From Anadara kagoshimensis (lineage: Eukaryota; Mollusca; Bivalvia; Arcoida; Arcidae): a stretch of DNA of 64,000 bases. Both the position numbers and the translations under genes were made by a program. Each line of letters opens with the position of its first letter. Position 1 is the stretch's first letter. Below, piece by piece: positions 16,805-63,551 of this stretch. The notes beneath the pieces were generated by a model. It did not search any database. It was given only the letters and a program-made list of their open reading frames with translations, and had not been told where the DNA came from. The stretch spans positions 25,062,050 through 25,126,049 of the forward strand of contig CM037869.1 in NCBI GenBank assembly GCA_021292105.1. Reading direction: 5' to 3'.

Positions 16805-17075
16805 ATGGCAGCAACACAAAATCCCAAAGGAAAAATAAATAACCCGAACAGTGGACCAACTAAAGACAATGTTAGTAAACAGCAAGACGACCAATATAAC
16901 CAACCCACCAACACATTGATATTCAAAAGTGGTGCTAGTAATGTAGTGCTAAATGGTGACTGTACTACTACACTACAAAAAGACAAAGTTAAGGAGAAAT
17001 TATCCAATGGTTCACAAAATAGCTGCACCAAAAGCGACATCAGTAATGTTTTCAAGAAAAGTGATTCAGACACAG
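16805..17075 (+). CDS. CHS: CHS paralog 1, exon 1 (N-terminal cytoplasmic tail)
   Basis: Encodes about 90 hydrophilic residues, rich in N, K, Q and S, with no membrane segment and no recognised domain. It ends in phase 1 inside a glycine codon at cacag|gtagg and joins exon 2 to read DSDTGSDVEED. An acceptor-like pyrimidine tract ending in AG at 16798 sits just before the ATG, so transcription probably begins in an unseen upstream exon. The two codons between acceptor and ATG are open, so upstream coding sequence cannot be fully excluded. Confidence 0.75.
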
Positions 17076-20000
17076 GTAGGAATATTTATTATTATGTAAA
17101 CTAACCCTTGCAAGCTCGATGAAATATCGGGCCAATTCGGGACAATATTTCCTAATATCAGTCTAATAACCCTTTCATCGAAAATATAGGTAAACAAAAT
17201 TGACCTGTCCATTGACCTTTCATTAGAAATATATGTATATAGCGGGATTCACCCGGGTAGTAGTAGAATTCGCAGTAAATAATGTGTACACAAGGTACAC
17301 GATTAATGTTAACATTCTGTAGAAAAAATTAACACCTGTGATTTCTATACAAAGATGCACTCATTCGTGATAATTGTTTTAATTAAAGGTCAAGCGGACA
17401 GGTCAGTGCTGTGTCTATACCTGTTGTCTCACAATACATGAAAGTGCATTAGTACTAGTATTTAGATATAAGAACTAGTGTAATATGGTACCAACACAGC
17501 GGTGACATCCTCAGTCATGTTACCACAATCGTATGACGTCATGACCAACAATGTCACACCATAAAGCATGTAATATGAAAAATGATTCGGAAAATCTCGG
17601 AAGGAACAAAGTTTGCATGCAACCTAACGGTTCGAAATTTATCGCTTAATTCATATGCAAAGTATATATTGCTATATAACAAATATCTTCGTGAGTTATT
17701 CAGTTGTCTTGTTTTTTCTCTCTCTGTAATTGTTTCGTTACTTGTGATATCGTATCATTCTCCCATACTTTACTTAAATGAAGTTTGATATATTTCTGCA
17801 GCCCCTTCACTAGAAAACATTTTTACAAAAGCAACCAACATACATTCACCTTTTTTGCATAGCTTATAAGTACAAGTACGACAAAAAATTGATGTAAAAC
17901 ATTTCGTTAATGTAGCGGTACTCTCATAACAGGGATTTATATTATATTTTTTAAACTTTTACTTCTATAGGCATAGTTATTGACAAGTAGTATGAATAAT
18001 CATTCAGTTTTTTATACATTCTGAATAGGGAGTTTGCCCTTAAGACACATACAAATATAAAAAAGTATGAGTATATGCATAACATTAAGAAAGTAAGTTA
18101 GACTTAAGTATTGTTTGAGAAAGTAATAAAAAAAAACTTATTGAGAGTGATAGTGTTGGAATTTCTCTCATTCATGTTATTGATACCCGCGCATTAACGC
18201 GTTACTTTATGTCTCTTTTAGGGTCCGATGTTGAGGAAGATTTTGACTTGAGTGATTTAAAAGAACAGAAATTTAGACAAAATGAATGCTGTAATACAGA
18301 GAAGTGGGGTCACTATTTTTGGCTCGTTATGAGGTTTACAACACAAATATTCCTTTGCTTGGCTGTATTTGTTTGTCTTATTGCATCAAAAATTTCATTT
18401 CAATTTATTGCCAATGGGATAGATAGACGGAGACGGAATGATGCGGGATTCAATCATGGCCAGGTATTTGATTAATTTAGTTTTTCTACAAGGTACTTGA
18501 TAAATATGATTTAATTGGAAATCAGTACAATCCATTAACTGTACTGTGTTTTAGATATCATGTGACATAGTTCCATGTTCCTTTCACACACAATTTTTAT
18601 TACATACATGGCGGGTGTAGTTAAATAGGAGGTGCTTACCCTTCCGGAGCACCTGGCCTCACTTTCCTAGTGGAAGTTGACGTGTCTAACATTATTTTTC
18701 AGTATAGCTAGCTAAACAGGATGTGCTTACCCTTCCAGAGCATTCAGCCTCATAGTCCTGTTGTTGGTTCATGTGTTTAACCTAATTTGCCATATCCAAC
18801 GTTTTTACTTTGTTTCTGGATTGTGATTCGGACATGGATTGGTATGTTTGTTTTTGTTTAAGTATGACATTTTAACAATTCAGAGCTGATGCAAAATGAG
18901 CCGTTCGCAGGTGTCGTATTGGCATTTCCTGGACATCGCAATAGCTGTTGTTTGTTTGGTACAAATATAATTAAGCCAATTATCTGCGATGTTAACTTTC
19001 TGTATTGTTGATAACGCACTAGCATCAAAAGGTCGTCATGAGCACTTGATAAATTCTTGTTGTGATGCATACTTAGAATTATTGTCTTGTCGTTCATTAT
19101 CGCCAATAAGGAAAATCATTGATAAAATGAAAAATAACCATACTCAAATGAACGGGCCTAACCATTTAATTTTTTTATAAATTAAACACTTATGCCAAAC
19201 ATAATTAAATTTAGACATACTAATCCATGCCCGAATCACAATCCAGAAACAAAGTAAAAACTTTGGAACTGACAAATCAGGTTAGACACGTGAATTTCCA
19301 CCAGGGAAGTGAGGCTGGAATCTCTGAAAGGGTAAGCACCTCCTGTTTAACTAGCTACACCCGCCACGAGAGTAATCAAAATTTTGTGAAAGGAACAAGG
19401 AACTATGGGATGTCAAATATACCCAGGGCAATCCTGGACATTAAACTTATAAACAGTTTGGTGACGACCATAAAACTTTTTGAGGGTCTTGATAGGTCGA
19501 GGCTTGCAATATCCTTAAGTCAATGTATTTGCAAGCAGCCTGCTTCGTTTATCGTAAGTTCAACTATAACTGATCGGTATGTTTGTTTTTCGCTTTTCCC
19601 TTTGGTGCGTAAGATGCATTTAACCATTATAACATATACTTTGTCTTTCGGTCTTATTTATTGCGTCTGTTTATTTACACGTATCAAGTAGTATAAGTAT
19701 TTTTCCAATGTTTTTCTGATGAGGAAATGTATTCCAAAACGGTCGTCTGGTGCTATAAATTTAGATTGACATACAGTGTTTCGTAGTTACTGAACTACTG
19801 AACTTCTGAGAGTGTGTCCTAGTAGGTACAGTCTCTTAAACATTACATAAGAATTTTTACAAAAATCCGCAGATGGTTGACATTTTGGTTTATTAATGCT
19901 GTTCTGGAACAACAAGCAGTTCCGGCTTACATGGTCTCACATCCAAGGTGAAAGTTCATGTGTGTAACCTTAGTTGTATTTTTCAATTTTTTAACTTTGT

Positions 20001-23000
20001 TTTGGAATAGATCTTTGGACATGTATTTGTTTTTGATACATATTTACTTGTGAATTTTTAATTTTAGCACCTAGATCAACATAATGTTTTCGTTTGTCAA
20101 CTTGTGATATGTCTTATGGTACCGGATATACTCAAACTGATTTCAAGTCTTTGGCAGTTGGTTATTTATAGAAGGATAAGGTCCAGAAATTGTATACAAG
20201 AAAGCACAAAAGATAACGATTCTACTGTAGGGAATAATAAGAAATCCCGCTGGTTTAAACAGAATAGCTATGAGGTGAGTATATCAAATTGTAGTTTCTG
20301 ACAGTGAATTATGAAGATTTTCCAAAAAAAACCTATAAACTTCAGTGATGTTTGGTATTACGTACTTACGTACCTGAGGCTATTTATAATTAATAATAAG
20401 TAGTTATAAATAAAAAGAAGTCTGTAGAAGGTAAACAGCTGCTATTAGTATTACCCTGGTTGAACAATTGCCATGTTAACACAGGAAATAATGTCCTTAG
20501 TGACATATTGTGTCGTATTTGCAAAATGACTCTCCAATTGCCTCATTTCCAACATGTGAAATACCCACATTAGAAATATTCCAAGCTGTGCAGTGATATT
20601 CTATTTAACCACAGATGCGCATATATATTTCTAGAAAAAATTTATACACTATTTTGTAACATATTGTAACTTAAAGACATAGCAAAAAAAGTAAAAATGA
20701 TAATTTTATTTAAATCAATTTGGAAAAAACTAAGGTCTATGCAATTTCTTCCGATTGAAATTCAGTTTTTTCTAATTAATTTTCCCTCAATTTTTTTTAC
20801 CATGACCTATTTTAAAGGTTTGACCATTTTGCTGTTAGATTGCTGAAAAAATAAGAAAAACTTATTTGCAAAAAAATTGTTTTTCTTACTAACATGTACT
20901 TATATTTTGAATTTTTCCTTGTCATTTCAGATAAAACATATATGTTTAGAATTCCTGCAGTGTAATGCAATGTACGTATTTGCATTTATCGTTTTTCCTC
21001 TATTAAGTTCTTTGGAATTTTGTGTCTTTTCTGCTGGGATATCTATTATTCCATGCATGATGAGAACGCTAGGAAGAAGATGTGACTTTAGTGCCAAGAA
21101 AACAGTGTTTTATGTCATATATGCAGTATTATACTGTGTAGGACTTTCTGGAATGGTTTTTGTAATAGGGTATAAAACTCTTATTTTATATGGAAAATCT
21201 CGACTAATTTTTGCTTCTATTTCTATGTTATTATTTGGACTACGATGGTTACCTTTAACAGACAAACAGCAGGAAAGAGGAATATCAAATATTTCTCACT
21301 TGATTTCAAATCTAGTTCGTATCGCTACAGCTGTTATTTTAACCCTAAATTTCTACCCGGATGTCGTGTCGAAAACTTATTTTGTGAAAGATATTATACG
21401 AAATTGCGGATTTTACTCTATCACGGGGCTTATAGCTAACCAAACGCATTCACAATTACTACAAAATTTATCTAACTCCTCCGTGGGTATAACAGGCACA
21501 ACACTTTGTATTCAATATGAATATTATTTCCCTTTTCTTTTGAGCATTATTACGTCATTACTTTCTTATCATTTTGCTACAATGGCATGTAGATTACGAA
21601 TGCAACAAACCAGTTTCGCATTACCTCTAGCAATAGCTTTACCCGTTTACGTGGCATACTTATTTATTGTGGAGCTGGGAATAATTCCTAATGACAAGTT
21701 TGGACTCGTCTCTCTTGGTGAATCAAATGAGGCTATATCTATTCTGCTATTTGGATCATTTGTATTACTTTGGGCATGTCAGATGTGGTCTTGCAGGAAC
21801 ATTTGGAGAGAACAAACAGAACATTTACCAGAAACAGGCAGGTATGTGATAAATGTTCATAACAATTGTTAAAGAACCTTAAATTGTAAATGTCTCAAAC
21901 CTTGATAAAGTCAAACAAACATACTAATTCATGTCTGAAATCTCAATCCAGAAGAAAAGTAAAAACGCTTTGAAACTGACAAGTAAGGTTAAACACGTTA
22001 ACATCCACCAGGGTTGTGAGCCCGAATGCTCAGGACGGGTAAGTACCTCATGTTCAGCTAGCTATTCTTGCAACGTGTGTAATCAAAATTGAGTGAAAGC
22101 AACATAGAACTATGGGACGTCAAATATGACCATGGTAGTCCTTGACACAGAGACATCAAACTAAAACATTATGTAACCGTATTTTATTTATATTTTATTG
22201 TTTTTACTACATGCAATGTATATGCATTCGTAAAGAAAACCATATTCAGTTATTGTCACCAAAAGTTTATTTTATTAAAACATTACAACCATCCATAGAA
22301 AATGCTAATTATATTCAAATTAATGACATTCCGCTTTCATTATTCGCATAAAAGAATCCCAAATGTTAATGGGGCGTAGTTGAATGTTGATTACACCTTA
22401 GAGCATAATTATAACTAGAACTTTAAAATTAACCACAAACAGGCCAATCCATGTCCAAATCACAATCCCTATGGAAAGTAAAAACTTTGAAAATTATCAA
22501 ATTGAAGTCAAACACATTCACTTCCACCAGGAAAACCGAACCTTGATGGGTGCTCCAGCTTAAGCTAGCTATTCAAACTAGGCGTTCAATTAATATTAAG
22601 ACTAAAAGCAACTTAGAACTATTTGATGCCAAATATATCCAGGATAAGGTTGGATACAGACTCATCATGCTAATCAACACTATTAGGAGAACAGCTATAA
22701 AACGTTTTGTGAAACCATTAATGAAATTCATATATAAGGACGCAACATATTCCACACAACAACAGAAATCGCACAACAACAAATACCACACGAAGTGCGT
22801 GTTATTATTATTATTTATAATCATACATTTCATTGTTTTACAGGCTTTTTAACTGTTCTAGTTACTTTGGTCCGTTTAATGACATATCACTGATGAATAG
22901 TAGAAAGCAAGAACCAACTATAAACAAAGCACGTTTACATCCAGAGGAAACTAAGTCTTTACTCAACATTAATTTTGATGATGATGAAAATAACAAAATG

Positions 23001-24558
23001 CGACCGATAATATTTGTGTGTGCAACAATGTGGCATGAAACTTTGGAAGAAATGAAGATTTTGATAACATCTCTATTGAGGTAAAATAAAAAAATATTAA
23101 CTGTACTAATATATTGAAGAAACCTAAATGAAATAAAATTGTATACAGTTGAGTCATCGTGTTAAAAGTCCCATTCAAGAATATTTCATGTATATCAAGA
23201 TTTTGTCAGCTTTAGGCGAAGATATAGAAATAGTGTCTGTGTTTATGCGTTGCGCTGATGGCATTATACAGCAAGACTCTTTATCGTACCAGGCCTATTG
23301 TGACACTGTTCCACGTTTATTTTAAGTTCCAATCCGAGAGGACATTAACTTTCATTTCGAAATGCAGAGCGCTAGACAATAGAAAAGTCACTATCCACTT
23401 TCAAGTCTTTGATCAGACCCAGTCAAGGTTAAAACCAACATCACCCCCACTTAAAGTGATAGCACTCTATAAACTGTTGCCACAGTGGCTAGAAATAATA
23501 TTATAAAAGATACACTGTCATTAACTTTAGATAATAGTAAAATATTTTATTCTGATTAATTTTAAGGTTTTATGAACGTAATGAAAAATTTTTCCACATT
23601 CGAGGCTAAAACTTTTTAGATAGGACGAATACCTCCTAAACTTTGGCATTTTATAATTATAGAAGCACAGTCAAACCTGTCTATAAAGGTCAGGTGATCT
23701 TTATATACAGGTTCAAATAATATGAATAAAGAACAATTTGAATATAATTATACTGACCTTTATAAGCAAGTAGTCCTTATATAGAGGTGGCCTTTAAGGC
23801 AAGTTGGACTGTATTTGATTTTACAGTGAATCCAGAAAAATATGTATTCGCTTAAAATGAACAATTCCGAACAAGCTGAAAACAGATTGCATTTTTTCTT
23901 TTTAATAAAGATTTGTTTTCTTTGTTTTCAAGGCACGTTTAAATCATTTACACTAATTCGCTTGAGGATGTCTAACATTTTGCTATGAAATGTACAGATG
24001 ATTTTAAGCAATTTGGTAACATAATTAATTATGATTCTCGCTTTTGTTTAAATTTCAAAATCTTCAATGTCCCAGTCAAGAATATATATCTTATATCGAG
24101 ACGTCGCTTTAAGTGAAGTGCAGACATTTTGCCTGTGCGTTGCGCTGATGACATTATTCAGCAGGGATCTTTATCGTGTCTTACCCCCAGTGCCACGGGA
24201 TATCGTTTAATTTAAGGTCCCATCCGAAAAAAACTGCGACTTCCATTTTGTAATGTCGAGTGCTTAGCAAAAGAACAGTCACTACCCATTTTCATGTCTT
24301 GAGTCAGACCCGTCGGGACTCGAACCACTTATGGAGCGAGCTTTCTACCAACTGAGCTACTGCAGTGGTATGATCATGAGGAACGCGTAATGTTTATTGT
24401 ACTGTTTTAAAGCTTTTTAATTCATCTGGGTTTATTTTATTCCTAGTAATGATCATTACACTTGAAATGTAAAGAAGTCAGTTTAGGATACAGAGAAACT
24501 ATTTGCAACGTAAACGTGAACTGTAAAACATCGTAAGAGTGATTTCTGCCCTATAAGG

Positions 24559-24598
<40 letters not shown>

Positions 24599-27198
24599 GT
24601 TTCATAATTTTGGTCCAAGCACTACTGATGAGGAATTGTATTCCGAAACGGCCGTCTAGTGCTGTAAAAATTAAAACTGGTATAATATGGAATTTTGGCT
24701 ATATGAACAAAATCATTTGTAAATCCACATGATGTCTGAACATTTGGTTTCTTTTTACAGACTTGATTATGACCATGCGTGCAGACGACGGCAACTTCAT
24801 TCATACATATATGAAGATGAATTTGATCTTGATAGTAAGAAACAATATTGATATGCTCATAATATATTGAAGTTAATAGATGATTAAGCAAATACAATAG
24901 AATCGCCACAAATATCATAACGGACTCTGTACTTAAAATAGTCCCAAGGGCAGTAACTCTCAGCTGAATATTTATTTCAGCCTCTAATCAAAACTTTTCA
25001 CAAATGTGCAACATCAGTATTTATTAAACCTGGATATATTTGACGTATCATAGTTAGATGTTCCTTCCAATTTTGATTCAAAACGTGGTGAGTGTAGCTT
25101 TAGAGACAGGAGGTGTAAAAATCGTCCCGTCCCACCTTACTTTCGTGGTTAAATTTATCTTTTTTTTTTCCTTTTCGGGTTGTGATTTGAGCTTGGAGGA
25201 TATGTTTGAATTTGAAGTATTATAATGTTGTAGAACAGATTGTTTTCGACCTTTATCACTAAGTTATATTCCAAAGGTAAAATAACTAATTGACTGTAAA
25301 TATGATAATTTTGTGCAGAAATAAACAAAGTGGTTTTGTGCACACTACATGTCTCGAGCCGGAATAAATAACATCTAATCATTGTGATTATATTACATCA
25401 ATTTCTAAAAGAAATGAGTAAAATTTTAAATCAGCTTTCTTTTGGTATAAAATGTTTGAAACAGTAAACTTAAAATAAAATAAAAAAAATAAATTTTTTG
25501 CGAAATAAGAGTACGCTGATCTGATTTAAAATGACGTCACTGTCGTTCACCTTGGCAACAATCTGTAGATGTAACGTTTACTAAACGTGTTTTAATTTTG
25601 CAACACTAGACCGTCGATTTATGATAAAATTCCCTCGTCATTAGTGCCCAGTCAAAGGTTAAATTTTAGATGTTGAAATGAGAAAAATAGAAGCAAAATG
25701 TTTTTTACCAAATCCATCAAAGCAATACATGTACTTTATCGATTATTGATGGGTTAGATTCTTGAGGTATTTTTTTTTAAAATTTAAAAAACATCTTGAT
25801 TAAAAATATTTATATTATGATACAATATAAGATTCAAACCAAATACATCTAATTACGTATACATTTCAACCAATCTGAAAACTTAATATATGCTAAATGT
25901 AATATTGAAAAAAATGTCATTACATTACTTATGGGAAATTGCATAATGCAATTCATTTTAATTAATCTTTCCTTTTTCCTTTTTATATTTTGACAAATTC
26001 TTAGGCAAAATTTTAGTTTGTCACACAATTAACAAACAGATTTTAATAGTCCAAGTAAAATTGCAACAATGAACAGGTCAAAATTTAATCGCAAACTTGA
26101 CTGCAAGGACTAAATGTCCGTCATACCTCAGAATTCCAGGGCAGGCGAAACAAATGAATTAGGTTGTTGTATCAGTTGTTGTTTTAAAAGGCTCTTCTCA
26201 ACACATGATTTTTGTATTTTTAGTGCACATTTTCTTCGATGATGCCTTTGAAATAATTGATGGTAGCGGGAAGGGATTAAACGCTTTTGTTAACACATTT
26301 CATAGTGCAATCAACGATGTTATAAGGTATGTTGGAGTTATTAAGGAATACTTACATGTATTTACTTTTTAGACTACAGTCAATTCGTCTTCCCCTAAGG
26401 CCATATCTATAAAAGGGCCATCTGCGTATTAAACCTTGTAAGATTGCATCCCATTTATTCTTTATTTACATTATTTGAACCTGTATATAAAGGCCACCTG
26501 TCACTAAAGACCACTTTTAATGGTTCCCTAGGGTGGCCTTTATAGACAAGTTTAACTGTACCTTACATTTGAGTGAAAGTGTCTGTATGTATAATTTTGT
26601 TCATATTTTAGGTGCCAAGTTAAAACCATGATAAAGTATAAAAATATCAAGGTTTGAACAGTTATAACTTAAATATTTAACGTTAATCCTTGTTTTTTTG
26701 TGTATTTGTCTGTAGTCTGTGTTTTGTATGCAATACGCGTACCTTGTTGATGCGTTCTAATGACCTATGTTGTCTTTGCTTCCAGTATGCGCCTATCTCT
26801 GCCTGTATTGTGTGTGTGTGTCAATTGACTCTTATTTATACATAGAAATCACACAAAGTGTTTTGGGTTGTAGAATATTATATCAATTGTTTATTTTCCG
26901 AAAGATATATTTTCTGTTATTTTTTATTACTACATCAACGAATTCAAACGCTAAGAAGCTTATAGATATTATCACCTACAAATTAAAAAATTCTATATAA
27001 ATATTATATGGACAGCATATACTATGCGCGTTATATCTCTTTGTTAGTACAATGGGTTTTAATATGTCTATATTTTGACCTCTTAACAACTGGTTATAAG
27101 ATAAGTGTGGTTCGATCATTACAGAAAGGCCAATAACCACGATAAAGGAATAAAGTAGTCTATAATTTCTAATTTATTAGTTTTATCAATGTGTTTGG

Positions 27199-27244: not shown

Positions 27245-29524
27245 TTGTATTTTATGACTGTTGTTTTAATTATTTGAATTGTTTTAAGGCTCTATCGATT
27301 GTTAACGAGTATATTGTTTCCCATTCTTTATGGCTGTAATTTACTACAGTGGTTTAACAGCAGTGAACATAAATACCTTGCCTTATTAATTAGTAATGCT
27401 TTGAACAAAATTTTTTCAAGGGTTTTAAAAAAAATATCTTAAGGACCAAAATCTATTAAAACAAATTTAGAAATTTAGCAAAGGACATTCTTTGCATGTG
27501 GGAGTATACCTTAATTATTGAAGATATTCAGATTTTACCTAGCAGCAAATTTACACAAAAGTACAAAAGTATTTCCTATCGTATGATTGTTTTTAATTAC
27601 AGGGAACATTATTCAACAGAATTTGAAATAAAACGAGTATTGGAATATACGACACCATACGGATGTCGTAAGGTTTGGACCCTACCTGGAAAGAACAAAC
27701 TTACTGTTCATTTAAAAGACAAAGAACTTATTAGAAACAAGAAGAGATGGTCACAGGTAATATAGCATTTAAAGGTTACTAAATATGTTTATTAACATGC
27801 ACTTGACACTAACCACAGTTACACAAAATTCAAATTAGGTGGTTTACAGCAACTGAGTTCGCGGCTGATACTCCTGATCGATAAACCTTAACGTTTATGT
27901 GGGATGTTTTGGAAAACGTTTCCGTCGCCAATTCCTGGAATAACTTGTTGTCACAAGAAAACATGAACTAATAGATCCCATATCCAATGGAAATAATAGT
28001 TTCACACAAACATAATGGGGTATCACGTTTTACAGCGGTCAAACCATGGAAGAAATTTTACTACTGATAGTACAGGCAAACCTGTCTATAAAGGTCACCC
28101 TAAAAGACCAGCAAAAGTGAAATCTATTCTATTCTATTAATATACATAAAGAACAATTGGGATACAATCCTACTGGCTTTATAATCAGGTGGCTCTTATA
28201 TAGAGGTGACCTTTAAGGCAAAGAAATTCTTAAGTGTCTATACATATTTAAACTTATGTTGTGCAAGAAGCCAATTGATGTCATGTTACTTATATGATAA
28301 AATATAGGATAAAAGATAAAATATTACCTGTTATAAAACAACTCATTGTTTTGTTAAATGCTTTTTCTGTTAAGTACTTATTAAAAGAAAAACATCCGTA
28401 ATAAATTATAATATCTACGCATATTAGTTGTTGATTAAGGAAACCGTATTATATTTTACTAAAAAACATCATATGATGAATAGATTTGCTTAGTAATTAC
28501 TTTGCTTCATTTGTATATGTTACCTATGTATAGGGTTGGCTCTTTCATATGAATATTCCTCATGAAAGGTCAAACGGAGACGTCGATGTTGTTTACCTAT
28601 ACTTTTTTCATTTTTATGAAACAACAACAACAAAGAAAACAAGAAATAAATAAATAAACATTAACAGGTTACGATACAGTGTAAAGGCCATCTGTTTTAA
28701 ATAAATTATTTGATATTTTGTTTTTAATTAAAATATTAAGGTGAATGTTTATGTTCTTTGATCAAAGTTGGTGTGTTCACTTTATTTGCAAGTTTAAGTT
28801 TTTTAATTTGCTATCGATTATGATTCAGACAACGGATTGGTATTTTCAGTTTTAATTATTTTTGTTATCACTAATATGAAACATGAATAATACTGTAAAC
28901 GTATTTATTTTTAATGTTTAATGTTTTCTAATGGTATTAATTATGCGCAAAACAAACGACAGCGAAATAAGCGAAAATTAGTTCACAACGAAAAATAAAT
29001 ACGTTTAAAGTACATTATTGGTTTCCCCTGAAGTCACAGTGTTTTTTAAACGCCGTGTTTAATTCATTCGAACAGTTCATTTGCATACTTTTAGACTCAT
29101 GAGCCATTAAGTAGTTAAAAAAGCAGAACATGGAGTAAAATACTTTGAAACTTTGAACACAATTGTCAATTCCAATAATTTATATTGTTAAAAAGACAAA
29201 AAACTCTAAGGAAGGAAACATAAGTAATAAACTATTATGATGATAAAATCCGTATTTCTTGTGTATTTAGGTATATCTGTGTAAGTGTTTTATTTAAACG
29301 ATGAACTACATCCGTGCGAATGTTTTATTGAATGATGAACTATCAGATAAATTTGTAGGATTATTTGCTTTATAAAGTGTAGCTATCCGAAGAGTGTTAT
29401 TGACAATGGATAAATGTGTTTAAATAAGTTTTATTTATCTTACAGGTCATGTATTTCAATTATATCTTAAAGCGAAAAGTATCCGAGATATCGAAAGAAA
29501 CGCATTTTGACAGAAAACATGTGG

Positions 29525-46018: not shown

Positions 46019-46054
46019 GATAGCTATGTAAATCTCGACGGCTTTTTGCAACCA

Positions 46055-47490: not shown

Positions 47491-47614
47491 AATTTACGGA
47501 TTATCGTCATTTCGTACCTGCCTTTAGATGATAAACTAATGACTAATTATAACCAATTTTATGCCGTTTAAACTCTTATTTATGACAACACAGTGCTATA
47601 AGGATAAAGTTTGA

Positions 47615-49255: not shown

Positions 49256-49369
49256 GGATAATCGCCATTACGTATCTGCTTTTAGATGATAATCTAATGA
49301 CTAATTATAACTAATTTTATGCCGTTTAAACTCTTATTTATGACAACACAGTGCTATAAGGATAAAGTT

Positions 49370-49500
49370 TGAAGTATAATGTATACTGCCATCGGCGCAA
49401 AGCCCAGACAAAATTTCTGCACCTTCGCCTGTACCTGGCGACGTCTCGATATAGTGAAATATTCTTGAATGGAAGATTAAACACCATTACTCAACTCACT
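49370..49500 (+). repeat. SINE-A 3' tail
   Basis: Repeats the junction tail (aaatttctgcaccttcgcct to agattaaacaccattactca). The left part matches 47615-47670. Confidence 0.6.
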
Positions 49501-49784
49501 CACTCGTAAATTGTCACTCAAATTGGTGTTCGAATAATCACTTCTTACCCAAGTGTGAGAAAGTTTGTTGAAGATTGACAGTTTCAATCTGTAACTCTGA
49601 TTTCCTATACCACCGTCGAACTTGCCGAAATGTAAGAAAATTTACTATCATGTTTTACTTTTTATTATACACATATCTTGTAAAATCAAGATAATATATA
49701 TAATAAGTTTAAATAAGTGAATTTATTCTTTCTTAAACAAGTTTCACCATTGTGTACGCTTCTTGCAAAATATACATATCAAAA

Positions 49785-50140
49785 ACAAACATACTACTCC
49801 ATGTCCGAATCACAATCCAGAAGCAAAGTAAAAACTTTGGAACTGACAAGTTAGGTAAGACACGTGTACTTCCGCCAGGGAAGTAAGGCCGGGTGCTCCG
49901 GAAGGGTAAGCACCTCCTGTTTAGCTAGCTACACCCGCCACGTGTGTAATCAAAATTGTGTGAAAGGAACATGGAACTATGAGACGTTAAATATATCCAG
50001 AACAATCCGGGACACAGAGACATCAAACTTATCAACAATACTGTGATGACGGCCATAAAACTTTTTGAGGGCCTCTATAAGCCTAGGTTTGCAGAATCCC
50101 TGAGTCAACAATTTTTTGCAAGCAGCCTACATCGTTGTAC
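49785..50140 (+). repeat. Repeat B, full-length copy
   Basis: Begins caaacatactactccatgtc, continues through the ttagctagctacacccgcca block, and ends near gcaagcagcctacatcgttg. With 19218-19560 it defines the full family length of about 350 bp. Confidence 0.78.
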
Positions 50141-52119: not shown

Positions 52120-52520
52120 TGTTATTTCATATACTCCGTTGTATAGCCAATATTCTTTATACTCCTTAATGTTGGTATGGAGATACTCTGTTGTATAGCT
52201 AATATTCTTTATACTCCTTAATGTTGGTATGAAGATACTCTGTTTATAGCTAATATTCTTTATACTCCTTAATGTTGGTATGAAGATACTCTTTTGTGTA
52301 GCTAATATTCTTTATACTCCTTAATGTTGGTATGAAGATACTCTTTTGTGTAGCTAATATTCTTTATACTCCTTAATGTTGGTATGGAGATACTCTGTTT
52401 ATAGCTAATATTCTTTATACTCCTTAATTTTGGTATGGAGATACTCTGTTTTATAGCCAATATTCTTTATACGCCTTAATTTTGGTATGGAGATACATCA
52501 TTTTATAGCTAATATCCTTT
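52120..52520. repeat. 52-bp tandem array downstream of CHS paralog 2
   Basis: About 7 to 8 copies of a unit containing tagctaatattctttatact and ccttaatgttggtatggaga. Degraded traces continue to about 52700, close to the stop codon of paralog 2. On the gene's strand this is the 3' flank or 3' untranslated region. Confidence 0.88.
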
Positions 52521-52707
52521 TTTACGACTTATTTTGGGTACCTAAGATTTAAGATACTTTGTACATGTTTTTTAACTTTTTACTCCTTCCTTGATTTGGG
52601 TACATATTTTTATAGCTTCGTTTTTACTCCTACCTTGATTTTGGTATTTGGGATATGTTGATTTTATAGTTAATATTATTCATACTCCTTATTTTGGGTA
52701 CGTAAAG

Positions 52708-54050
52708 TCATTGTTTTATTACTCCGTATCTGGAAATTTTATCAAGAAATGCATGGTATTTAAAAATCACCAATCCAAGCAACTGAAACGAGGTTACAAA
52801 TCCAAATATGAAAATTATTAGAAATCCAAATGGTTTAAAGGTGTAATCAGCGACTGTTATGTCAAGTTTCATTTTCAAAATATCTAAACATTTTCTGAAA
52901 ATCATTATACCACAATTTAAAAAAATGTAACCAAATACCCAGCGGTTTCTGCAAATTTGAAATTCTTTCATCAAAGAGCTTTTCGCGTCATCCTCAATTT
53001 TAATTGGGTCAAGAGTTTCTTTGATTAAATTTTCCCAAAATTCTTTTTCACTTCGACGTAAAGAGTGTATATTTGGAACTGGTTTCCTGACATGTGTTGC
53101 TGACTTCTCATTCTTCGTGTTGGCATTTTCATTTAGATTATTGAATTTTGTATGATGCATAGAAGATGACTCCTCATAATTTGCACTGTCATTTTCATTC
53201 AGATCATTAACTTTTGATTTGTGCAAAGACTCAAATAATTTAATTATAATCAAAGATTTTAACGTTTTGAAAAAAGAATGTTTTCTAGCATCAGATTGGA
53301 TGTCTTCGTAAATGTTCAAAATGGTTTCATTGTTGTAAATTATGTTTTTGGTATTAAGAATTTTATTTGCCGTTTTCTTTTCTCGTGTTCCCCATGACAT
53401 ATCATTCAGATTACAGACACAATATGTATACAACAACACATAACAAAGGGGCGAAAGTAAATAAAAAATGCCAATATATACCAAGTTATGGAACTGTGAT
53501 ATATGCAATAGTGCAGGTAAAAGATAGGGGATTAAATATACAAACCAATATCTAGACACCCCACGATGTATAAGAGCAGATATATGACCCATAAAAATAA
53601 AGACCATTAAGCATGCGTAAAATATTGTTAAAACCAACGTAACGTTATGTTGTATGTCTTTAGATTTCACCCGAAAACAAACAACAAAATGAAGAACAAA
53701 CGGTGCATACGTTACGGTATAAACCACCCATGGCTGTGCAATTGTCAATGATTGGAGAGATACCTCAATTAACCATAGAAGTACAGCCGCCGGAGTAACG
53801 GTTGTTATACCTACCAAAAGGAATATATAAACTATGTAAAACAGTGATATAGAACTGTTATGTTTTCTCAAAATATTGGAACATTCTTGTAAATCTAACA
53901 AGTTTGCAATAATAGACGAGGTCCAACGTCGTCTTTGTCTAAGGAATTCAGGAATACTTCCCGGTGCAGCAGTCAACACGGTAGCATCTGCAATATACTC
54001 TACACGGTATCCCTCTTTGAGTAAAAGTGTACATAACCATCGGTCTTCAC
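52708..54050 (-). CDS. CHS: CHS paralog 2, terminal exon (QRRRW, SWGTRE, C-terminus)
   Basis: 1343 bp, 66 bp longer than the paralog 1 last exon (acceptor atttgtag). It encodes GEDRWLCTLLLKEGYRVEY, FLRQRRRW, five helices, NLNDMSWGTREKK, a long hydrophilic linker, FWENLIKETLDP and two final helices, ending in TGA. An AATAAA string overlaps the last codons. Confidence 0.94.
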
Positions 54051-57000
54051 CTACAAATCAATCCAAACAAAAACACTTTTGACGTAAATAAAATTTATTT
54101 CGATAAACAAAGTCCTAACAATAAAATTTGAAACCAGACACGATTAATTTTTTTGAAGATATAAAAAATTAAAGCCGTTTCATTGAAACCAAAATTATAC
54201 CCATCCGATGCAACCTTACAAAGTTACATGTTTCAAACATATTCATCCGCTATAAATAAAATCGAATTATTCTTTCGAACTTTTGTACTGAAATTGTAAC
54301 TCTTACTAGATAAAAACATAATTTCCTTTTATTTTAGATTTTTAGGTATCGTTTTTATAGAAAAACTGGACCAGTTGTTTTTCGATTATATCTGTTTTTC
54401 TTATGATTATTTACGTACCAACTTTTTTGACCAGAAAATATGGGATGCCACGTATTTGTGTGATGGATGACATTCTTAAAAAATCCAAACTATTGAGTGG
54501 TGTCAGTATCTATATAATATATATTGGTTTTGGGTATGGGTTTTATCATAAATCACAAATATATCTAGAAATGCAATTTGTTTGGATTTTTTCTCATTAA
54601 TGTTCTTAATTGGTGCTGAATGTTTTAAATTGTTTTAGAAGATTTATTTTGAGTTCAGCCAAACTATAAAACTTTTTTCATACATATTCTACAATATTCT
54701 CATAGGCAATGTGATATTGTTAAAGAAATACAGGTTATTGATAAGATAAAAACCTTTTTCAAAATTATTAGTTCTTTATACGCTTTACACTAGTTACTTT
54801 CGATATTACATTTTTTCTTTAAGACCTCGTGGACCGAAGGGTCCTTAGGTGGAGATTATTGATCAAACACGGCTAGGGTTTGGAACCTACTCGGGCATAT
54901 CCCAGTTCATTTAGCGAAGATCAGTTGTTTTCTCCAACAACATGGGATTAAAACACCATTTCTAAACTGACCTTGACGATATATGTATAAGTGGAGAGCT
55001 CTTGACTAGAGCGTAAAGCTCATTAAATTCACTCATATAACTTCTTTTTCACATCATATATTTACCTTGGTCAAATTGTAGATGCTCTCTAGGTGTTGAT
55101 GGTATTTTAGAGTAGGTATCCATCACTCCAGTATTAGAAATGGCAGTTCCTCTGTAAAGTGAAAAACAGCCAGGCGCACACAGAACAGAACCAAATACTT
55201 GTTCAGCGGTTTTCCACAACCAATGTCCCATTGCATATTCAAATTTTTGAAACCAAATAATTGGACCTTTATTTAACGAAATAAAATTTTAAATAATAAT
55301 TTCAAATATGGATTTTGCATCTTTTTATACATGTTTTTTAAATTGTTGCACTGTCACTATACTACTATATTGAAAACATATTTCTGACACATGGACAATG
55401 TATGCAATATTTTATTAAGACATTAACAAGTATATGTGAACAGCCTCAAAATATTAACATTGTATTTGATTTAGTCATGAAATTGGACTTTTAAATTTGT
55501 TAGTTTTATATTTCTGATCACAAGTTTGTTGCTAAGTCGATGTTGACGTTTTTGGGATGCGGGTAAAATATAAATTGTTTAGATTTTCTATGACATAAGC
55601 TTATGTGTCAGATTCTAATAACGTTAAAAATAAATTCAAAAGAAGAAACTATTTCGGTTGTCAAACTTTGGAGTATCGACAGTTTGAAGGGTAACCTATT
55701 TTGCATTTTAGACGAGAAAACTGGTTTGCAGACCTGATTCAATAGTGTCTACTTGCACCAAATTCATGGCTTCTATATATTAATATAGATCGAAAAATTA
55801 GATATTAAACATTAGTTTATTGTCATAATAATATTTACTGAATATTAAACATTATTTTATTGAAATTATTGAAAATTTTATTGAAAATAAATACAAAACC
55901 TGATCCACATGGGACAAGGCGACCAGTTACAGCTCCAATATTGGGACATTCTTGCATTTTTATAAAGATTTTCTTGACATCCATTGGTGTAAAGCTAACG
56001 TCGCCATCTAATGTCAGAATGAATATATTATCTTCCTAAAATACAACAAAACATATACTACACATGTTGTCTTTAAAGACACCACAAATAAAAAACCATC
56101 ATACCAATCTATCTCCAATGAAAAGTAAAAACTTTAAAATCTGACAAACACGTAAAACGTACACCAAATCAAAGAAATCAAAGAAACTAAAACATACATT
56201 ATTCTAATATCGACTGAAATTATTCATAAATCAATATAAAGTCGAGGTTTACGCATTTGATCCAACTTGTATCAAATGTTAACCTAAACAAAATTGCGTT
56301 TATTGCCTTATACGCTATTTTTAATGAATGTTGTCAATATTATATTAACAAAATCACGCCACATTCGTCGTAAATGACAACATTGGGAAATTACAACTTG
56401 TCTGCATCAAAGTTAAATAACATGTCTTGGTTGTTTTCATATGATGTTTTAAGACTCAAAGATTTAAGGGTAACAGAATTCATAACAATAGGCATTTTAG
56501 ATCAAAGCTTCATTCTGAGAGAACTAGAATATCTTTAAAGATTTTTGGAGGTGGTATCGGTAGCTGAGTGGCTTTAAGCGCTTAATTACTTACCACAGCA
56601 CCTAATCTTATTAGGGTGATAATAGTTTGACAATGTGCCAGTTCGCTTGTTGTAACCTAGTGATGTTTCCTTGGTACTCAGATTCAACCATCTTTGAACT
56701 AATATAACCGCCTCGATATTTATGAAATAATCTTGACTTTGGTATACAATTCATTCCACCCCATCCGGTGAAAGGTTTAGGTTTGAAATTCACAAAAAAA
56801 CTATGAATGAGTACTGAATGTATATTTTTAAGCGTAAAACTGTATTCCGTTAGCAGAAGTCTTTTTATGATAAGGTTAGTTAAATTAATGCTGTATTGGT
56901 ACATGGATATTGTTTTTCATAGCACCGGTTCGATGTTCCCTATTCATGATAAAACATTTATGTTAAATTAGATACGATTTCATTATGTGCTTATTACGAT

Positions 57001-60000
57001 TTATGAATGATTGTGCAAGTTGGAATTTTACTTTTACAACCCCAAAAAACACTGATTGAGACAATCAATTTGAAATGGAGAAAGGCAGTTTACTCGTTTA
57101 ACTTTTAAATTGATACTGTAAAGTGGACATTATATTCTATAAAATACACATAATTTATATTGATAGAGAGATTGAGAGAGAGAGGGGAAGAAAGAGAACG
57201 AGATAGAGATACTCACCACATGTTGCCTGTCTAAATGTGCTCCTTTTGATATTTCAGTGACTTTTTGTTTCAATATGTAATTGAAATACATCACCTGTTA
57301 AACAATAAAGATAAAAAATAGTGTACAACGTTTGCAAGAAAATCAGACAATATATAAATATGTAGCTTAAAATTGTCTTGCTATAGCAATTTCACTACGA
57401 CAAACATAAAATACATGTGTATAAGACGGTAACAGAACGACAGACGAACGAAACCACTGTTGCTTGTCATTTCTAAGTTGAATATAGAATAATAAAATAA
57501 CTTGAAAATATATGGTGGCTTTACTTACTGCATAATTAACAGGAAGACAAATAGTTTCTACATATATCAGATATTACTAGTACCTATGTTCTACGTTGAT
57601 GTTAAGTTTTCGAACTGATTTCAGTCGAATTGATGTTTCAAAGCAATTAAATAATAATGTTTCGCTGTTTGATTAATATGTCAAATGAACGCAAGAAAGC
57701 TACATATGTATATGAAGCAAACAAAAACGAAATGTTTAGCAATAGAATGATATGATAAAATCACCATATGTTTTGGAGTTATCCTTGGACTTTTACCATA
57801 ATGAGGATTATTATTTCTGACAACATGAGCATACATTTGTAATCATATAGATGATGATAAAAAGTTAATTGATATACTTGGATCCAATCTGAAAAATCTC
57901 ATTGTATAGAATTTCTTTTATATTGTTATTTGTCCAAGCACTACTGATGAGGAAATTTATTCCTAAACGGTCATCTAATGCTATAAAATTTAAACTTGTA
58001 TACATGTAATAAGTTTTTAAACCACTGGGTAGCTATCTCTGCTGGTTATCTGAGGATCGCCGAAGATATCATAAACTCAGTAGGCAATACTTTTGCATTG
58101 TCAAAAATATACTATTGTGTAAATATGGTAATAGCAACAACTAAGGTATACTCCCTCTTGCAAAGCAATAGTCTAGCTTAATTTGGTAATATATATATAT
58201 TTCTCCTTTAGATATTTTTGAACCCCTAAAACAGCAATACTGATGAGGAGATGAGTAATTGTAATCCTAAACGAAAGTGGTGTGAATTAACACTTGTATG
58301 ATATGTAATTTTATTATATAGATATATATGCTTCGCATAGAAATTAAGCATTAAATCCCGAGGTGTTAGCGTGCAATATATACCGATATTTGCACGCTAA
58401 CTTTGTTCCGGTCCGATGTTTCCCGAATCAATTTTTTCATATTGCACGCTTTGTCATATGACGCTGTCGTTTATGACGTCATACGATTGTTGTCGACGTT
58501 ATCGCTGTGTTGTTTGTCGTATTACACTAGTTCTTAAATGCATTTACAAAAACTAGCGTTATATTTATGTATTGTTCAACAATACGGTATTTTACATGAA
58601 ATACTTGACGGAAGTAAACGAAATTTTTTTTGCTATATAATAAAAAGATTATTGAACTAATATTGTGAAATATCAGTTCAATAACCTTATAATATCATTA
58701 TGTGTATATTTATGTCTTTAGCTTTTATATTATGACAAATCTTATATTTCTAATTCACCTGTGACCACCTTTTGTTGTTTCTAATAAGTTTTTTATCTTT
58801 AAAATGAACAGTTAGTTTGTTTTTCCCAGGTAAGGTCCACACCGTTCGCCATCCATATGGTGTTGTACAGTTCACTACTAGTTTCATCTCAGAAGTGACT
58901 GAAAAATGTTCTCTGCAGTAAAATAATAAATTTTATTAATGCATCAAAAAATAGTAAGCCTATGCTTATCAGGCCCTCAAAACTTTTATGGCCGTTGTCA
59001 TAGTATGTTTCTCTGTGGTCACGATTGCCATGGTTATATACATTACAAAGTTTCATGTTCAATTCATTTTCAATTTTTATTACGTATATGCGTAGCGAGT
59101 GAAGCTAGCTAAACAGAAGGTACTTGCCCCTGCTGAGGGAGCACCCTTCCTTCCTTTTTTGAAAAAAATTACGTTTTTAGTCTAATTTGTCAGTTTCCAT
59201 GTTTCCTTCCGTAGGAGAGTAATTTCGACATAGACTAGTATGTTTGTATCAAGCCAATGTCTACTTGTTTTATTTATTTAGAAGTGACATTTTTAACTAT
59301 ATGTCATACAAACAAAGTTAGCAAAGTGGTAACCGATAAACAAAATTATTGAGTGTAGCTACCTTGCAACATCGCTTATTGCACAATGGAGAGTGTCTAC
59401 AAAGGCGTTTAATTCCCTGTCGTTCCCATCAGTGTATTCAAATGCATCATCGAAGAAAATATGTGCTGTAAATATTCAAGTAATATGTTTTATCAAACTA
59501 TGAATACCTCTTCATTAAAATTTCTAACAAAGAGAACAAAGATCACATATATACAAAAAATGAAATGGAGAAATGAGTTTTGCGTCCATGTCAAGATTCT
59601 TTTATTTATAAGAAACCGTCAATTCAGGGATAGTGGTGAAAACTTAGGCACAAGCGATTAGGCAAATGTCAATAAGTGGGGTTCTAATCTAGGCGGCGAA
59701 AGTCGCTAATATTATTGAGTAGGTATATCCCAAAGAGATTTAATGTTTGGTCTATTTTAAATTAATCTATTTGTAAAATATAGCGGCTTACTGCGGATAT
59801 TTAATGTACTTGATTACAGATCTCATTTTTTTGTATTTTCAAAGCTTGTTTTAGCAGATAAAGTGAACCAATCCACAAATTATATGATTTAAGATTTAAC
59901 ACAAAACTGTTTTGATCGAATTTTTATTTTCTAAATGTATGATTGTTACTAAATAAATTCATATTTTTATTTGGTTAGAAGATAATAAAAACAAACATGC

Positions 60001-63000
60001 CAATCAATGACCAAAACCACAATCGTAGCGCAGATTAAAAACTCTGAAGCAAGGAAAATGGATCATACACGTGAACGTCCGACAGTGAATGGAGACCGGG
60101 ACCACTAGAACGGTAAGCAAAAACGCGTGAAGTGAAACCGGGTCCGTTAGAAGGTCTAGAGTAAGAAAAACTAATATGTACTTAATTTCCATTTTTTATG
60201 ATTGATTTTTTATGTATTCTTACCATCTAGATCAAAATCATCGTTGTAACTATGTGAGTGTACATCACTGCGTCTGCATGCGTGATCATAATCAAGTCTA
60301 TAAAAAATTGTTATCATTTTTAGTTTGTTTTGGAATTCATGACATGGATCGGTATGTTTTTGTTCGATCGAAATTTACTTACTGTTAAATAATGAGTATA
60401 TAATAGTGCTAGTGCTTGATAGAATTTCAAGATTTGTTAATTTAAAACAAAACGACGAATGAAATAAAATTGTGAATATACACATATGCCAACTTTAATG
60501 ACATTCATACAGTTTTTGTCACTAACACTATTTATATTTGTCTTTGCAGTGCTTCGGGGCAATGTATAACAAGTAATCTCTAGCCTGACATGCTATGACA
60601 TAGGTCATATTGATTTTAGGGTCCTTTCGTAGGACATCGTGACTTCCATTTCTAAATGCCGAATGATTGGCATAAGAACAGTGTCAGCCTGTTTAACCAG
60701 TCTTGCTTAAAAACAACCTGGGTTCGAACCCCGGCCTGCCACATCCGAAGCGAAAAGTCTTTATTAACTGAACTACCGTAATAGTAAAATGATACAATAT
60801 ATAATATTGTGTTAGTGGTGAAACTGTCATGGAATGATAAATGAGTCAGAACAACTAACTATTATTATGTATTATGTTCTCCAAAAATAGATTTTTATGA
60901 AAACCATAAGTTCAATCCAATGCAATTTACGTTGTTGTCAGAAATTAGCATTGCTGAAAAAATCCATAGATTTGTAAAGTAAGGTTCACTTTTTAAAACA
61001 ATTTCTTTTAGATTTATATTTCTATTCCTGCAAACCATTTAATCTTTTTCTTACTTTAGTATTGAATGTAGTAAAATCTTCATTTCTTCCAAAGTTTCAT
61101 GCCACATTGTTGCACATACAAAAATCAACGGCCGCATTTGGTTACTATCTTCATCAAAGTGAATGTTTAGTAAAGAATTAGTTTCCTCTGAATGTGTATG
61201 TGGAGTGGTCATAGTTGGTGTTTGTTTTCTACTATTCATTAATGATATGTCATTAAACGGACCAAAGTAACTGGGAAAGGTAAAAAGCCTGTAGAAATAA
61301 TATATAAGATTCACTTTGTAATTATATAAAAAATCAGTCATACACTAAATATTTAACATCATAAACAAAAAGTCATTCCATGAACTAATCACAACCAACA
61401 AGGCAAAGGGAACTATTAATCAATAAATTAAGCTAAAGGTAAACTTCAAGCAGTGAAATGAGACAGTGTGTTCTGGAAGTAAACATCTCCTGTCCACCTA
61501 GCTTCACTCATCATGCCTGCATTTAATTAATATAAATTACTTGAATATGTGCATTATGCTTAATGTAAAGAATCAAAGGATATGAAAGTAAAAACTTTAA
61601 AACCGGCAAATTAAGTTAAACACGTAACATTCCACTAGATAATAGTGTTCCGAAATATGACCACTTCCTGTTTAGCTAGCTACATTTACAATGTGTGTAA
61701 CTATTGTTATTTTTTATGTAGTAATTCAGAAATCGTATGACAGTAAACCGTACCTGCTTGTTTTTGGCAAATGTTCTATTTGACGTTTCCAAATATGCCT
61801 GCAAGACCACAATTGACATATCCATAGTAACACAAATGATCCAAATAAAAGATTAATCGTTGCCTTACTTGAATGACTATTAGTTACAAATGCCAAGTTC
61901 TCATTACTTATCAAATCTGACTCCACAACAAACAAAAACAACACATAACACGGTAAGGCTACTGCTAGTGGCAATGCAAAACTTGTTTGCTGCATACGTA
62001 ATCTACACGCAGCGATAGCGAAATGATAAGAAAGAAATGACGTCACAATGCACACTAGAAAGGGAATGTATAAGCTATATGGAATGCAAGCTTCTATTTC
62101 TTTTACATCTTCAGAAACAAACGATAAATTTTGTAACATATGCAAATGTGATTGGTTTGCTTTGTATTCATCGGTTAAGTTCAAACCACAATTACGCTTG
62201 ATTTCATTTATAAAATGTGTTATCGACCCGACATCCGGATAGAACTGGAGGGTCAAACTTACAGCTATTAGAATACGAGTAAGACATGATATCACATGAG
62301 AAATATTAGATATTCCTTTTTTCAGTTCTTTTTCATTTAGAGACAGCCATCGCAAACCAAATAGAAGCATTGATATAGAAATCAGAATTGAGAACGAACG
62401 ACCAAATAAAGTAAGTATTTTATACTCTATCACAAAGGCAATTCCTGAAAACCCCAAGCAGTAAATAGCCGAGTATATAATGTAAAACACTGTTATTTTT
62501 AAAGTAAAGTCTTTTCTTCCACACAACGCTCTTATCATACACGGAATGATCGATATTCCAGCGGAAAAGGCACAAAATTCCAATGGGGTTAGCACCGGAA
62601 AGACTGTTAGTACAAATATGTACATTGCATTACACTGAAGAAACTCTAGGCATATATGTCTTATCTGAAATATATAAAACAAAACATTTAAAGAGAAAAT
62701 TATAAAATTATAAAATACAGACTAATTTTTATTTAATTTCCGTGTTAAATAACTGTACTACGCGTATAGTACATAACAAAATACTTCTGTTTTAATCAAA
62801 AACTGTAAAAATGTTCAATGTCAACTATGTATTAAACAAACATTTAACGTTTTATTGGCATATTTCCATTGTTTTTTTTTTCATGCAATCCTCCTCAGAA
62901 AAAAATCACAACTATTTCTTTGAAGTTAATTTTTACATGGACATTATATGTGACCGAGAAAAGAATTATTCTAAAACTGAAAAATGTTTATATTTTGCAC

Positions 63001-63551
63001 ACACCAATCAATGAATTCATTAATAGCATGTGCATCTATAAAGACACGAGTATTATTACAGATTTCTATAAAAAAAAAAAGCCATCGTAATTAAACATGG
63101 TCCTGACACAATTATAATGGTCCGTTTAGAACCTTAATTCTGCATGCAAAGTAAAAGCTTTAAGAACTGCAAAATAAGTTTAGCACGTTAACAGGCACCA
63201 GGGAAATGAGGTCAAGTTCTCCGAGAGGGTTTAGTTAAAACGAGTGATTCGAATGTTTCGAATTCTTCTCAATAACACTTAAACCCATTGAAAAATTAAA
63301 TTTAAATAAAATGTTTTTCTTATATGCACCTCATAGTTGTATTCTTTAAACCAATGCTTTTTCTTCTCTAGTTGTACGGTAGAACCTGGATTTTTTCCAT
63401 ACGCTTTCAAAGTCCCTTGTTTATAACATTTGTGTGATGTTATTCTTCTATAGAAAAGTAACTGACAAAGACTGTTCAACAGTTTAATTATATCTGGTAT
63501 CATTAAACATATCACCAGCTGGTAAACAAATATGCCTTTTAAAATTGAATG
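52708..63551 (-). CDS. CHS: Chitin synthase, 10 exons, 5' end outside window (paralog 2)
   Basis: Second chitin synthase, convergent with paralog 1. Exons in transcript order: 63551-63330, 62664-61754, 61288-61055, 60297-60224, 59465-59363, 58912-58759, 57294-57217, 56035-55900, 55266-55066, 54050-52708. All have GT-AG introns and one continuous frame of 1151 residues plus a stop. The equivalents of paralog 1 exons 1-2 (about 171 residues) were not found before the right edge. Motifs: ATMWHET, HIFFDDAFE, WTLPGKNK, KRWSQ, LDGDVSFTP, GEDRWLCTLLLKEGY, FLRQRRRW, MSWGTRE and FWENLIKETLDP. Nothing breaks the frame, so it should be an active enzyme. The cytoplasmic linker after SWGTRE is longer than in paralog 1 and contains a 22-residue internal duplication. 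Confidence 0.93.
55066..55266 (-). CDS. CHS: CHS paralog 2, equivalent of exon 11
   Basis: 201 bp (acceptor taaataaag, an unusually purine-rich tract; donor ccaag|gtaaat). It encodes GPIIWFQKFEYAMGHWL, EQVFGSVLCAPGCFS and a QFDQG end. It is about 88% identical to paralog 1 at the protein level. Confidence 0.93.
55900..56035 (-). CDS. CHS: CHS paralog 2, equivalent of exon 10 (catalytic LDGD)
   Basis: 136 bp (acceptor ttttag, donor gatcag|gttttg). It encodes EDNIFILTLDGDVSFTPMD and ends VTGRLVPCGS. The donor (gttttg) is weak compared with paralog 1 (gtattg), but frame and homology fix it. Confidence 0.92.
56560..56765 (+). repeat. Degenerate tRNA-headed SINE in CHS paralog 2 intron
   Basis: tcggtagctgagtggcttta resembles an A box, and the tail ccgcctcgatatttatgaaa matches that at 1980-2010. 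It lies in the intron between paralog 2 exons 9 and 10. Confidence 0.45.
57165..57212. repeat. GA-rich tract at the exon 9 donor of CHS paralog 2
   Basis: Interrupted ga repeats (agagattgagagagagaggg and beyond); on the gene's strand this is a CT tract starting about 8 bp after the donor GT. Confidence 0.9.
57217..57294 (-). CDS. CHS: CHS paralog 2, equivalent of exon 9
   Basis: 78 bp, phase 0/0 (acceptor tttaacag, donor catgtg|gtgagt). It encodes VMYFNYILKQKVTEIS plus KGAHLDRQHV. As in paralog 1, the donor is followed at once by a CT-rich tract. Confidence 0.9.
57880..58312 (+). repeat. Repeat C, tandem copies in CHS paralog 2 intron
   Basis: gtccaagcactactgatgag, then taaaccactgggtagctatc, aaactcagtaggcaatactt and a second degraded core near 58225-58290. 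Same block order as the tandem at 35270-35900. Confidence 0.65.
58365..58560. repeat. Repeat D copy in CHS paralog 2 intron
   Basis: A 12-bp inverted repeat (gttagcgtgcaa / ttgcacgctaac, 58365-58401) is followed by atgacgtcatacgattgttg and cgctgtgttgtttgtcgtat. The latter is shared in reverse with 17455-17680. Confidence 0.55.
58759..58912 (-). CDS. CHS: CHS paralog 2, equivalent of exon 8 (WTLPGK, KRWSQ)
   Basis: 154 bp (acceptor tactgcag, donor tcacag|gtgaat). It encodes EHFSVTSEMKLVVNC, then TTPYGWRTVWTLPGKNKL and a basic stretch ending NKRWSQ. The N-terminal third differs most from paralog 1. Confidence 0.92.
58975..59250 (-). repeat. Repeat B, diverged copy in CHS paralog 2 intron
   Basis: Minus-strand blocks aacttttatggccgttgtca, gtgaagctagctaaacagaa and gacatagactagtatgtttg. 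It lies between paralog 2 exons 7 and 8. Confidence 0.6.
59363..59465 (-). CDS. CHS: CHS paralog 2, equivalent of exon 7 (FFDDAF)
   Basis: 103 bp (acceptor atttacag, donor gcaag|gtagct). It encodes HIFFDDAFEYTDGNDRE and then a LNAFVDTLH segment. Length and phase match paralog 1. Confidence 0.9.
60224..60297 (-). CDS. CHS: CHS paralog 2, equivalent of exon 6
   Basis: 74 bp (acceptor ttttatag, donor agatg|gtaaga), the same length and phase as in paralog 1. It encodes LDYDHACRRSDVHSHSYN followed by DDFDLD. Confidence 0.88.
60560..60780 (-). repeat. SINE-A-like copy in CHS paralog 2 intron
   Basis: Minus-strand blocks catcgtgacttccatttcta, atgccgaatgattgg and a B-box-like gggttcgaaccccggcctg. 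The centre is diverged. Confidence 0.6.
61055..61288 (-). CDS. CHS: CHS paralog 2, equivalent of exon 5 (ATMWHET)
   Basis: 234 bp (acceptor tttctacag, donor actaaa|gtaaga), phase 2/2. It encodes SYFGPFNDISLMNSRKQ, a variable linker with histidines and acidic residues, and RPLIFVCATMWHETLEEMK. Confidence 0.92.
61754..62664 (-). CDS. CHS: CHS paralog 2, equivalent of exon 4 (membrane block)
   Basis: 911 bp, exactly as in paralog 1 (acceptor atatttcag, donor agcag|gtacgg). It encodes about seven hydrophobic helices, starting IRHICLEFLQCNAMYIF and including CRLRMQQTSFALPLAVALP and LLFGSFVLLWICQLWSC. Confidence 0.93.
63330..63551 (-). CDS. CHS: CHS paralog 2, equivalent of exon 3
   Basis: 222 bp, phase 0/0 (acceptor ttattttag, donor tatgag|gtgcat). 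It encodes HSILKGIFVYQLVICLMIPD, then a helix-loop ending KKKHWFKEYNYE. It is the first exon of this gene visible; upstream exons lie past 64000. Confidence 0.88.

Follow-up and report, generated by a model that had tools for sequence, protein, structure and literature searches.

Tail-to-tail chitin synthase paralogs with a shared exon plan in Anadara kagoshimensis, probably the products of an old local duplication

Two chitin synthase genes, here called A and B, lie tail to tail and 17.8 kb apart on contig CM037869.1 of the bivalve Anadara kagoshimensis (assembly GCA_021292105.1, positions 25,062,050 to 25,126,049). The whole stretch of 64,000 nucleotides that was analysed is referred to as the window. 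The locus raises the question of how the two genes came to be neighbours and whether both still encode working enzymes. Very probably, A and B are paralogous and likely functional animal chitin synthases (GT2, Chitin_synth_2) that arose through an old local duplication.

The gene models combine translated matches between A and B with splice sites (Table 1). The exon matches between the two genes reach E = 0 and 5e-137, which rules out chance. Gene A, on the plus strand, comprises 12 exons over 16805-34951 and encodes 1296 amino acids. Of gene B, on the minus strand, the window contains 10 exons (63551 to 52708) that encode 1151 amino acids. Both end in TGA and are free of internal stops. Position 63551, which the first-pass annotation used as a bound, marks the beginning of B exon 3 and not that of the gene; the first exons of B presumably lie beyond 64000, the window ending 449 bp past the start of exon 3. 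An acceptor-like ttattacag is found 6 bp upstream of the gene A ATG, and the frame is open across that site, so that further 5' exons and a longer N-terminus are possible for gene A.

Table 1. Exons of the two chitin synthase genes and the region between them (positions in the window).
Feature	Position	Strand	Remarks
Gene A exon 1	16805..17075	+	ATG at 16805; hydrophilic N-terminus; no B counterpart in window
Gene A exon 2	18222..18463	+	no B counterpart in window
Gene A exon 3	20068..20274	+	207 bp
Gene A exon 4	20931..21841	+	911 bp; N-terminal transmembrane region
Gene A exon 5	22844..23080	+	237 bp; CATMWHE motif
Gene A exon 6	24761..24834	+	74 bp
Gene A exon 7	26224..26326	+	103 bp
Gene A exon 8	27603..27756	+	154 bp
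Gene A exon 9	29446..29523	+	78 bp
Gene A exon 10	30549..30684	+	136 bp; LDGDVSF
Gene A exon 11	31146..31346	+	201 bp
Gene A exon 12	33675..34951	+	1277 bp, TGA stop; GEDRW, QRRRW, SWGTRE, C-terminal transmembrane helices
Intergenic	34952..52707		17756 bp stop to stop; 49% in repeats found elsewhere in window
Gene B exon 12	52708..54050	-	1343 bp, TGA stop; GEDRW, QRRRW, SWGTRE
Gene B exon 11	55066..55266	-	201 bp; splice pair third-ranked of three in-frame
Gene B exon 10	55900..56035	-	136 bp; LDGDVSF
Gene B exon 9	57217..57294	-	78 bp
Gene B exon 8	58759..58912	-	154 bp
Gene B exon 7	59363..59465	-	103 bp
Gene B exon 6	60224..60297	-	74 bp
Gene B exon 5	61055..61288	-	234 bp; CATMWHE motif
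Gene B exon 4	61754..62664	-	911 bp
Gene B exon 3	63330..63551	-	222 bp

The exon plan is common to both genes, much as the first-pass annotation had described it. Order and phase agree in all ten shared exons (3-12), and seven of the ten have equal lengths, namely those of 911, 74, 103, 154, 78, 136 and 201 bp, as it had named them. The remaining exons 3, 5 and 12 differ between A and B by multiples of three (207/222, 237/234 and 1277/1343 bp). The first boundary search accepted only AG/GT(GC) borders and phases that agreed between the copies; it was thus partly circular. For blocks 2, 7 and 8, lower-scoring candidates of 911, 78 and 136 bp were chosen over 986/968, 133/145 and 141/141 on grounds of an intact frame or a stronger splice site. 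A longer in-frame exon 9 (156/147 bp), which would add low-complexity sequence, was set aside. An independent test treated each gene alone and scored in-frame donor/acceptor pairs against a generic splice-site consensus, the weights of which were set from general knowledge. The top-scoring pair was in the phase of the model at 18 of 18 introns, and the model pair itself came top in all nine A introns and in five of the nine B introns. It ranks 2, 2, 3 and 3 at introns 4, 5, 10 and 11 of B, where the better-scoring alternatives are in the same phase, so that the exact B lengths at these places rest on homology and not on splice-site strength. The acceptor of B exon 11 (aaataaag) is weak and has no pyrimidine run beside the AG. 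Since intron positions may be conserved family-wide, the shared exon plan taken alone says little about sisterhood.

The family assignment draws on domain matches, motifs and membrane topology. Both proteins match the Pfam family Chitin_synth_2 (PF03142), A with E = 4e-27 and 95.5 bits, and B with E = 5.2e-26 and 91.8 bits (cut-off 27). CATMWHE, GEDRW, QRRRW and SWGTRE are present in both copies; both thereby contain the catalytic motifs EDR and QRRRW and the WGTR motif. QRRRW is a named chitin synthase motif in the excerpted text of PMC5379566. A profile built from the sequences of A and B found solved chitin synthases (E = 2e-14), the listed alignments pairing the stretches around EDR, QRRRW and SWGT, and the PDB search returned only chitin synthases (913-1160 amino acids, E 1e-10 to 1e-14). 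A crude Kyte-Doolittle count gives 14 transmembrane-like segments per protein, of which the exact number is unreliable, flanking the catalytic domain on both sides. The Pfam match, the motifs and the opposite strands bear out the earlier reading of A and B as convergent paralogous chitin synthases, and membership in this family suggests that both are enzymatically active. A C-terminal SAM domain is a feature of most metazoan type I chitin synthases; Pfam found none at E <= 1 in protein A or B, an absence that is not decisive, as only most type I members carry the domain. A tblastn search of the window with both proteins (E <= 1) matched the exons of A and B only and thus revealed no third copy, and no relatives were confirmed among the pattern matches in the genome contigs and viral contigs searched.

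Divergence between the copies is substantial, with 725 of 1123 protein positions identical (64.6%), and per-exon identity spans from 37/69 in exon 3 to 59/67 in exon 11. The eight differing residues reported earlier for exon 11 are correct, the aligned length being 67 and not 68. Estimates of selection were obtained by NG86 (dN 0.237, dS 0.983, ratio 0.24), LWL85 (dN 0.216, dS 0.680, ratio 0.32) and YN00 (dN 0.218, dS 2.575, ratio 0.08; no YN00 value for exon 12 alone). As dS is method-dependent, dN/dS lies somewhere within about 0.08-0.32. Purifying selection has acted on average across A and B; the NG86 ratio of about 0.24, a measure that the first-pass annotation had asked for, agrees with its view of a constrained enzyme core.

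At four-fold degenerate sites, 121 of 251 differ (48%), versus 69% expected for unrelated sites of the same composition, and 130 of 251 are identical, versus 31% expected (p = 2e-11). The corresponding distance of 0.83 (bootstrap 95%, 0.65-1.08) indicates a duplication that is old, as had been proposed, though unsaturated. Assuming synonymous rates of 1-5e-9 per site per year, the duplication would be roughly 80-420 million years old. Such an age would be lower than expected for members of groups that parted in the lophotrochozoan ancestor. The unsaturated four-fold sites favour a shared lineage-level duplication, an appearance that gene conversion could mimic; taken with the proximity of the genes, they suggest that this duplication was local. 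Differences at four-fold sites are fewer in exons 5-11 (34/90) than in exons 3, 4 and 12 (87/161; Fisher p = 0.018, uncorrected and post hoc). Exon 11 alone has 8/27 versus 113/224 elsewhere (p = 0.044, the groups having been chosen after seeing the data). The slightly younger look of exons 5-11 may reflect constraint, chance or conversion.

Outside the exons little of a common origin is left. Introns 3-11 total 11506 bp in A versus 7388 bp in B, and of the 40 blastn matches between the gene regions, 11 join same-index exons, 2 join corresponding introns (in opposite sense) and 27 fall elsewhere. The only shared sequences found there are dispersed repeats, of which the window has many; this upholds the earlier statement that intron content and length differ, and together with the blastn pattern it indicates that the introns have turned over and that the duplicated segment no longer has recognisable borders. 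For the same reason, an inverted duplication and a tandem duplication followed by inversion look alike here. The two paralogs are adjacent, no gene having been detected between them in a Pfam scan (E <= 0.1) of the six frames of 35200-50198. The search for extra genes likewise gave no Pfam match in the minus frames of 1800-16798 and no match for the ORF at 48455-48928.

The intergenic region 34952-52707 is the part richest in window repeats (49%, versus 30% of the A introns and 16% of the B introns). A dispersed family of about 300 bp with a tRNA-like head is represented at 46040-46430, where an Rfam tRNA match below threshold lies at 46058-46122 (27.5 bits). Further copies occur near 922-1254, 3820-4141, 16398-16716, 23151-23476, 24063-24369, 47169-47483 and 48926-49239, besides shorter pieces, and one copy stops about 90 bp upstream of gene A exon 1. 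This family is most likely a tRNA-derived SINE. The window yielded no RNA genes, either as Rfam matches at gathering scores or as ARAGORN tRNAs; of four sub-threshold Rfam rows, two are tRNA-like and probably parts of SINEs, and those for an Enterococcus sRNA and a plastid UTR model were taken as chance. A 49-bp tandem array occupies 13960-14259, with related pieces near 11456, 18801, 19207, 21907, 33127, 36942, 39138 and 49781; the 49-bp unit recurs at the margin of a dispersed repeat, some 140 bp long, with copies in the intergenic region and in several introns. A 52-bp tandem repeat at 52091-52520 (8.3 copies, 91% matches) begins about 190 bp beyond the stop of gene B and perhaps sits within its 3' UTR. 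The stretch 9490-9997 is made up of units of about 20 bp built around TTATTCCGG or the complementary sequence, which run in either orientation and form inverted arrays.

The origin of the pair may also be explained differently. A and B could be ancient members of different lophotrochozoan chitin synthase groups, brought together as chance neighbours and retaining ancestral intron positions. An aligned identity as low as 64.6% is compatible with this, intron positions can last hundreds of millions of years, and the lophotrochozoan ancestor has been inferred to have had four copies (PMC3942024, in excerpt). The level of four-fold differences, well short of that expected for unrelated sites, is nevertheless hard to fit unless gene conversion acted, and this explanation is unlikely. 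A related and marginally less probable account is that an ancient pair was held partly alike by gene conversion, so that its apparent age is too young. The lower four-fold divergence of exons 5-11, and of exon 11 by itself, would be its trace, but these groups were picked after seeing the data, which makes the support weak and post hoc. The introns adjoining exons 5-11 show no homogenisation, and tighter constraint on the catalytic exons would likewise lower four-fold differences. An old local duplication is the preferred reading.

It is very improbable that one copy, more likely B, is a decaying pseudogene. The weak acceptor of B exon 11, the second or third rank of the model splice pair at 4 of 9 B introns and the lack of exons 1-2 of B in the window could be read as signs of decay. 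The window edge, however, fully accounts for the absent 5' exons, and B retains 1151 codons without stop or frameshift, with all motifs kept and an average dN/dS well under 1. A further alternative concerns the extent of the proteins: the ATG of A at 16805 could be internal to a longer form whose 5' exons encode a myosin head, on the model of shell-forming bivalve chitin synthases. The acceptor-like site just before this ATG and the open frame through it fit such a form. On the other side, Pfam gave no match in the plus-strand frames of 1-14999, PDB gave none in the plus frames of 1804-16802, and neither a myosin P-loop nor an EAFGN motif occurs among the window ORFs. In a control frame over gene A, Pfam caught Glyco_trans_2_3 (1.2e-7) and missed PF03142, so that such frame scans are weak for short exons and split domains. 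In the modelled proteins themselves, B being without its 5' end in the window, Pfam detected no myosin head. A myosin-headed form of A is unlikely.

According to the preferred reading, an old local duplication would have produced two paralogs that now lie tail to tail. Each enzyme would be a multi-pass membrane protein taking UDP-GlcNAc in the cytosol; its catalytic domain would add UDP-GlcNAc to the growing chitin chain, which would exit via the membrane helices of the enzyme itself. A more speculative extension, of rather low probability, is that the convergent pair has long been kept with both copies under constraint, that their separate 5' regions let the copies split roles, for example between tissues or life stages, and that their close tail-to-tail arrangement permits read-through or antisense regulation of one by the other.

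That chitin synthases are expanded in molluscs and other lophotrochozoans, as the first-pass annotation had stated, is documented in PMC3942024, PMC4595640 and PMC8476170. Molluscs have up to ten chitin synthases, and lophotrochozoan members fall into four groups, A-D, with and without a myosin motor (PMC3942024, in excerpt). Lingula has 31 copies (PMC4595640, in excerpt), and two species of vestimentiferan tubeworms have 19 and 12 (PMC8476170, in excerpt). Paralogs with different expression, in mantle versus scale epithelium, are described in the excerpted PMC7142155, and in oyster two genes with myosin heads lie on separate scaffolds (PMC5379566, in excerpt). A literature search returned no publication on the exon-intron structure of mollusc chitin synthases, and none of the matches listed by a search on clustered or convergent pairs dealt with pairs of chitin synthases. 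Local chitin synthase clusters are already published (PMC3942024, in excerpt), and the pair described here is a further example. It adds a well-resolved gene structure to the record of local chitin synthase duplication with intron turnover; by itself it alters no view of the family. Expression patterns in other lophotrochozoans have led to the tentative proposal that duplicated chitin synthases divide their work; in a mollusc, A and B offer a handy natural comparison for such a division between shell, gut and radula.

Among known systems, the solved chitin synthases (PDB 7xs6, 7wjm, 7stl and others) align with the C-terminal half of the catalytic domain, including EDR, QRRRW and SWGT; they are distant, three of the alignments covering about 290-320 of 855 profile positions. 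The metazoan type II enzymes of lophotrochozoan groups A-D, as described in the excerpted literature, share with A and B the Chitin_synth_2 domain, membrane helices on two sides, the family motifs and the multi-copy state. Groups A-C carry an N-terminal myosin motor there; none was found in the modelled proteins of genes A and B, the latter lacking its 5' end in the window, a state that would suit either group D or secondary loss of the motor within group B or C. Ar-CS1 of Atrina, implicated in shell formation (excerpts of PMC5379566 and PMC3942024), has the same enzyme core and QRRRW; it is myosin-headed, while no myosin head was found in the roughly 15 kb upstream of gene A by a scan that is weak for short exons. 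The Lingula and tubeworm expansions are lineage-level, with expression that is tissue-dependent in the excerpted reports. A further parallel is Lottia gigantea, in which CS2-4 and CS7-8 are neighbouring paralogs on one scaffold, as are A and B; the Lottia copies are called 'tandemly repeated' in the excerpted PMC3942024, which gives no orientation there, whereas the Anadara pair is convergent.
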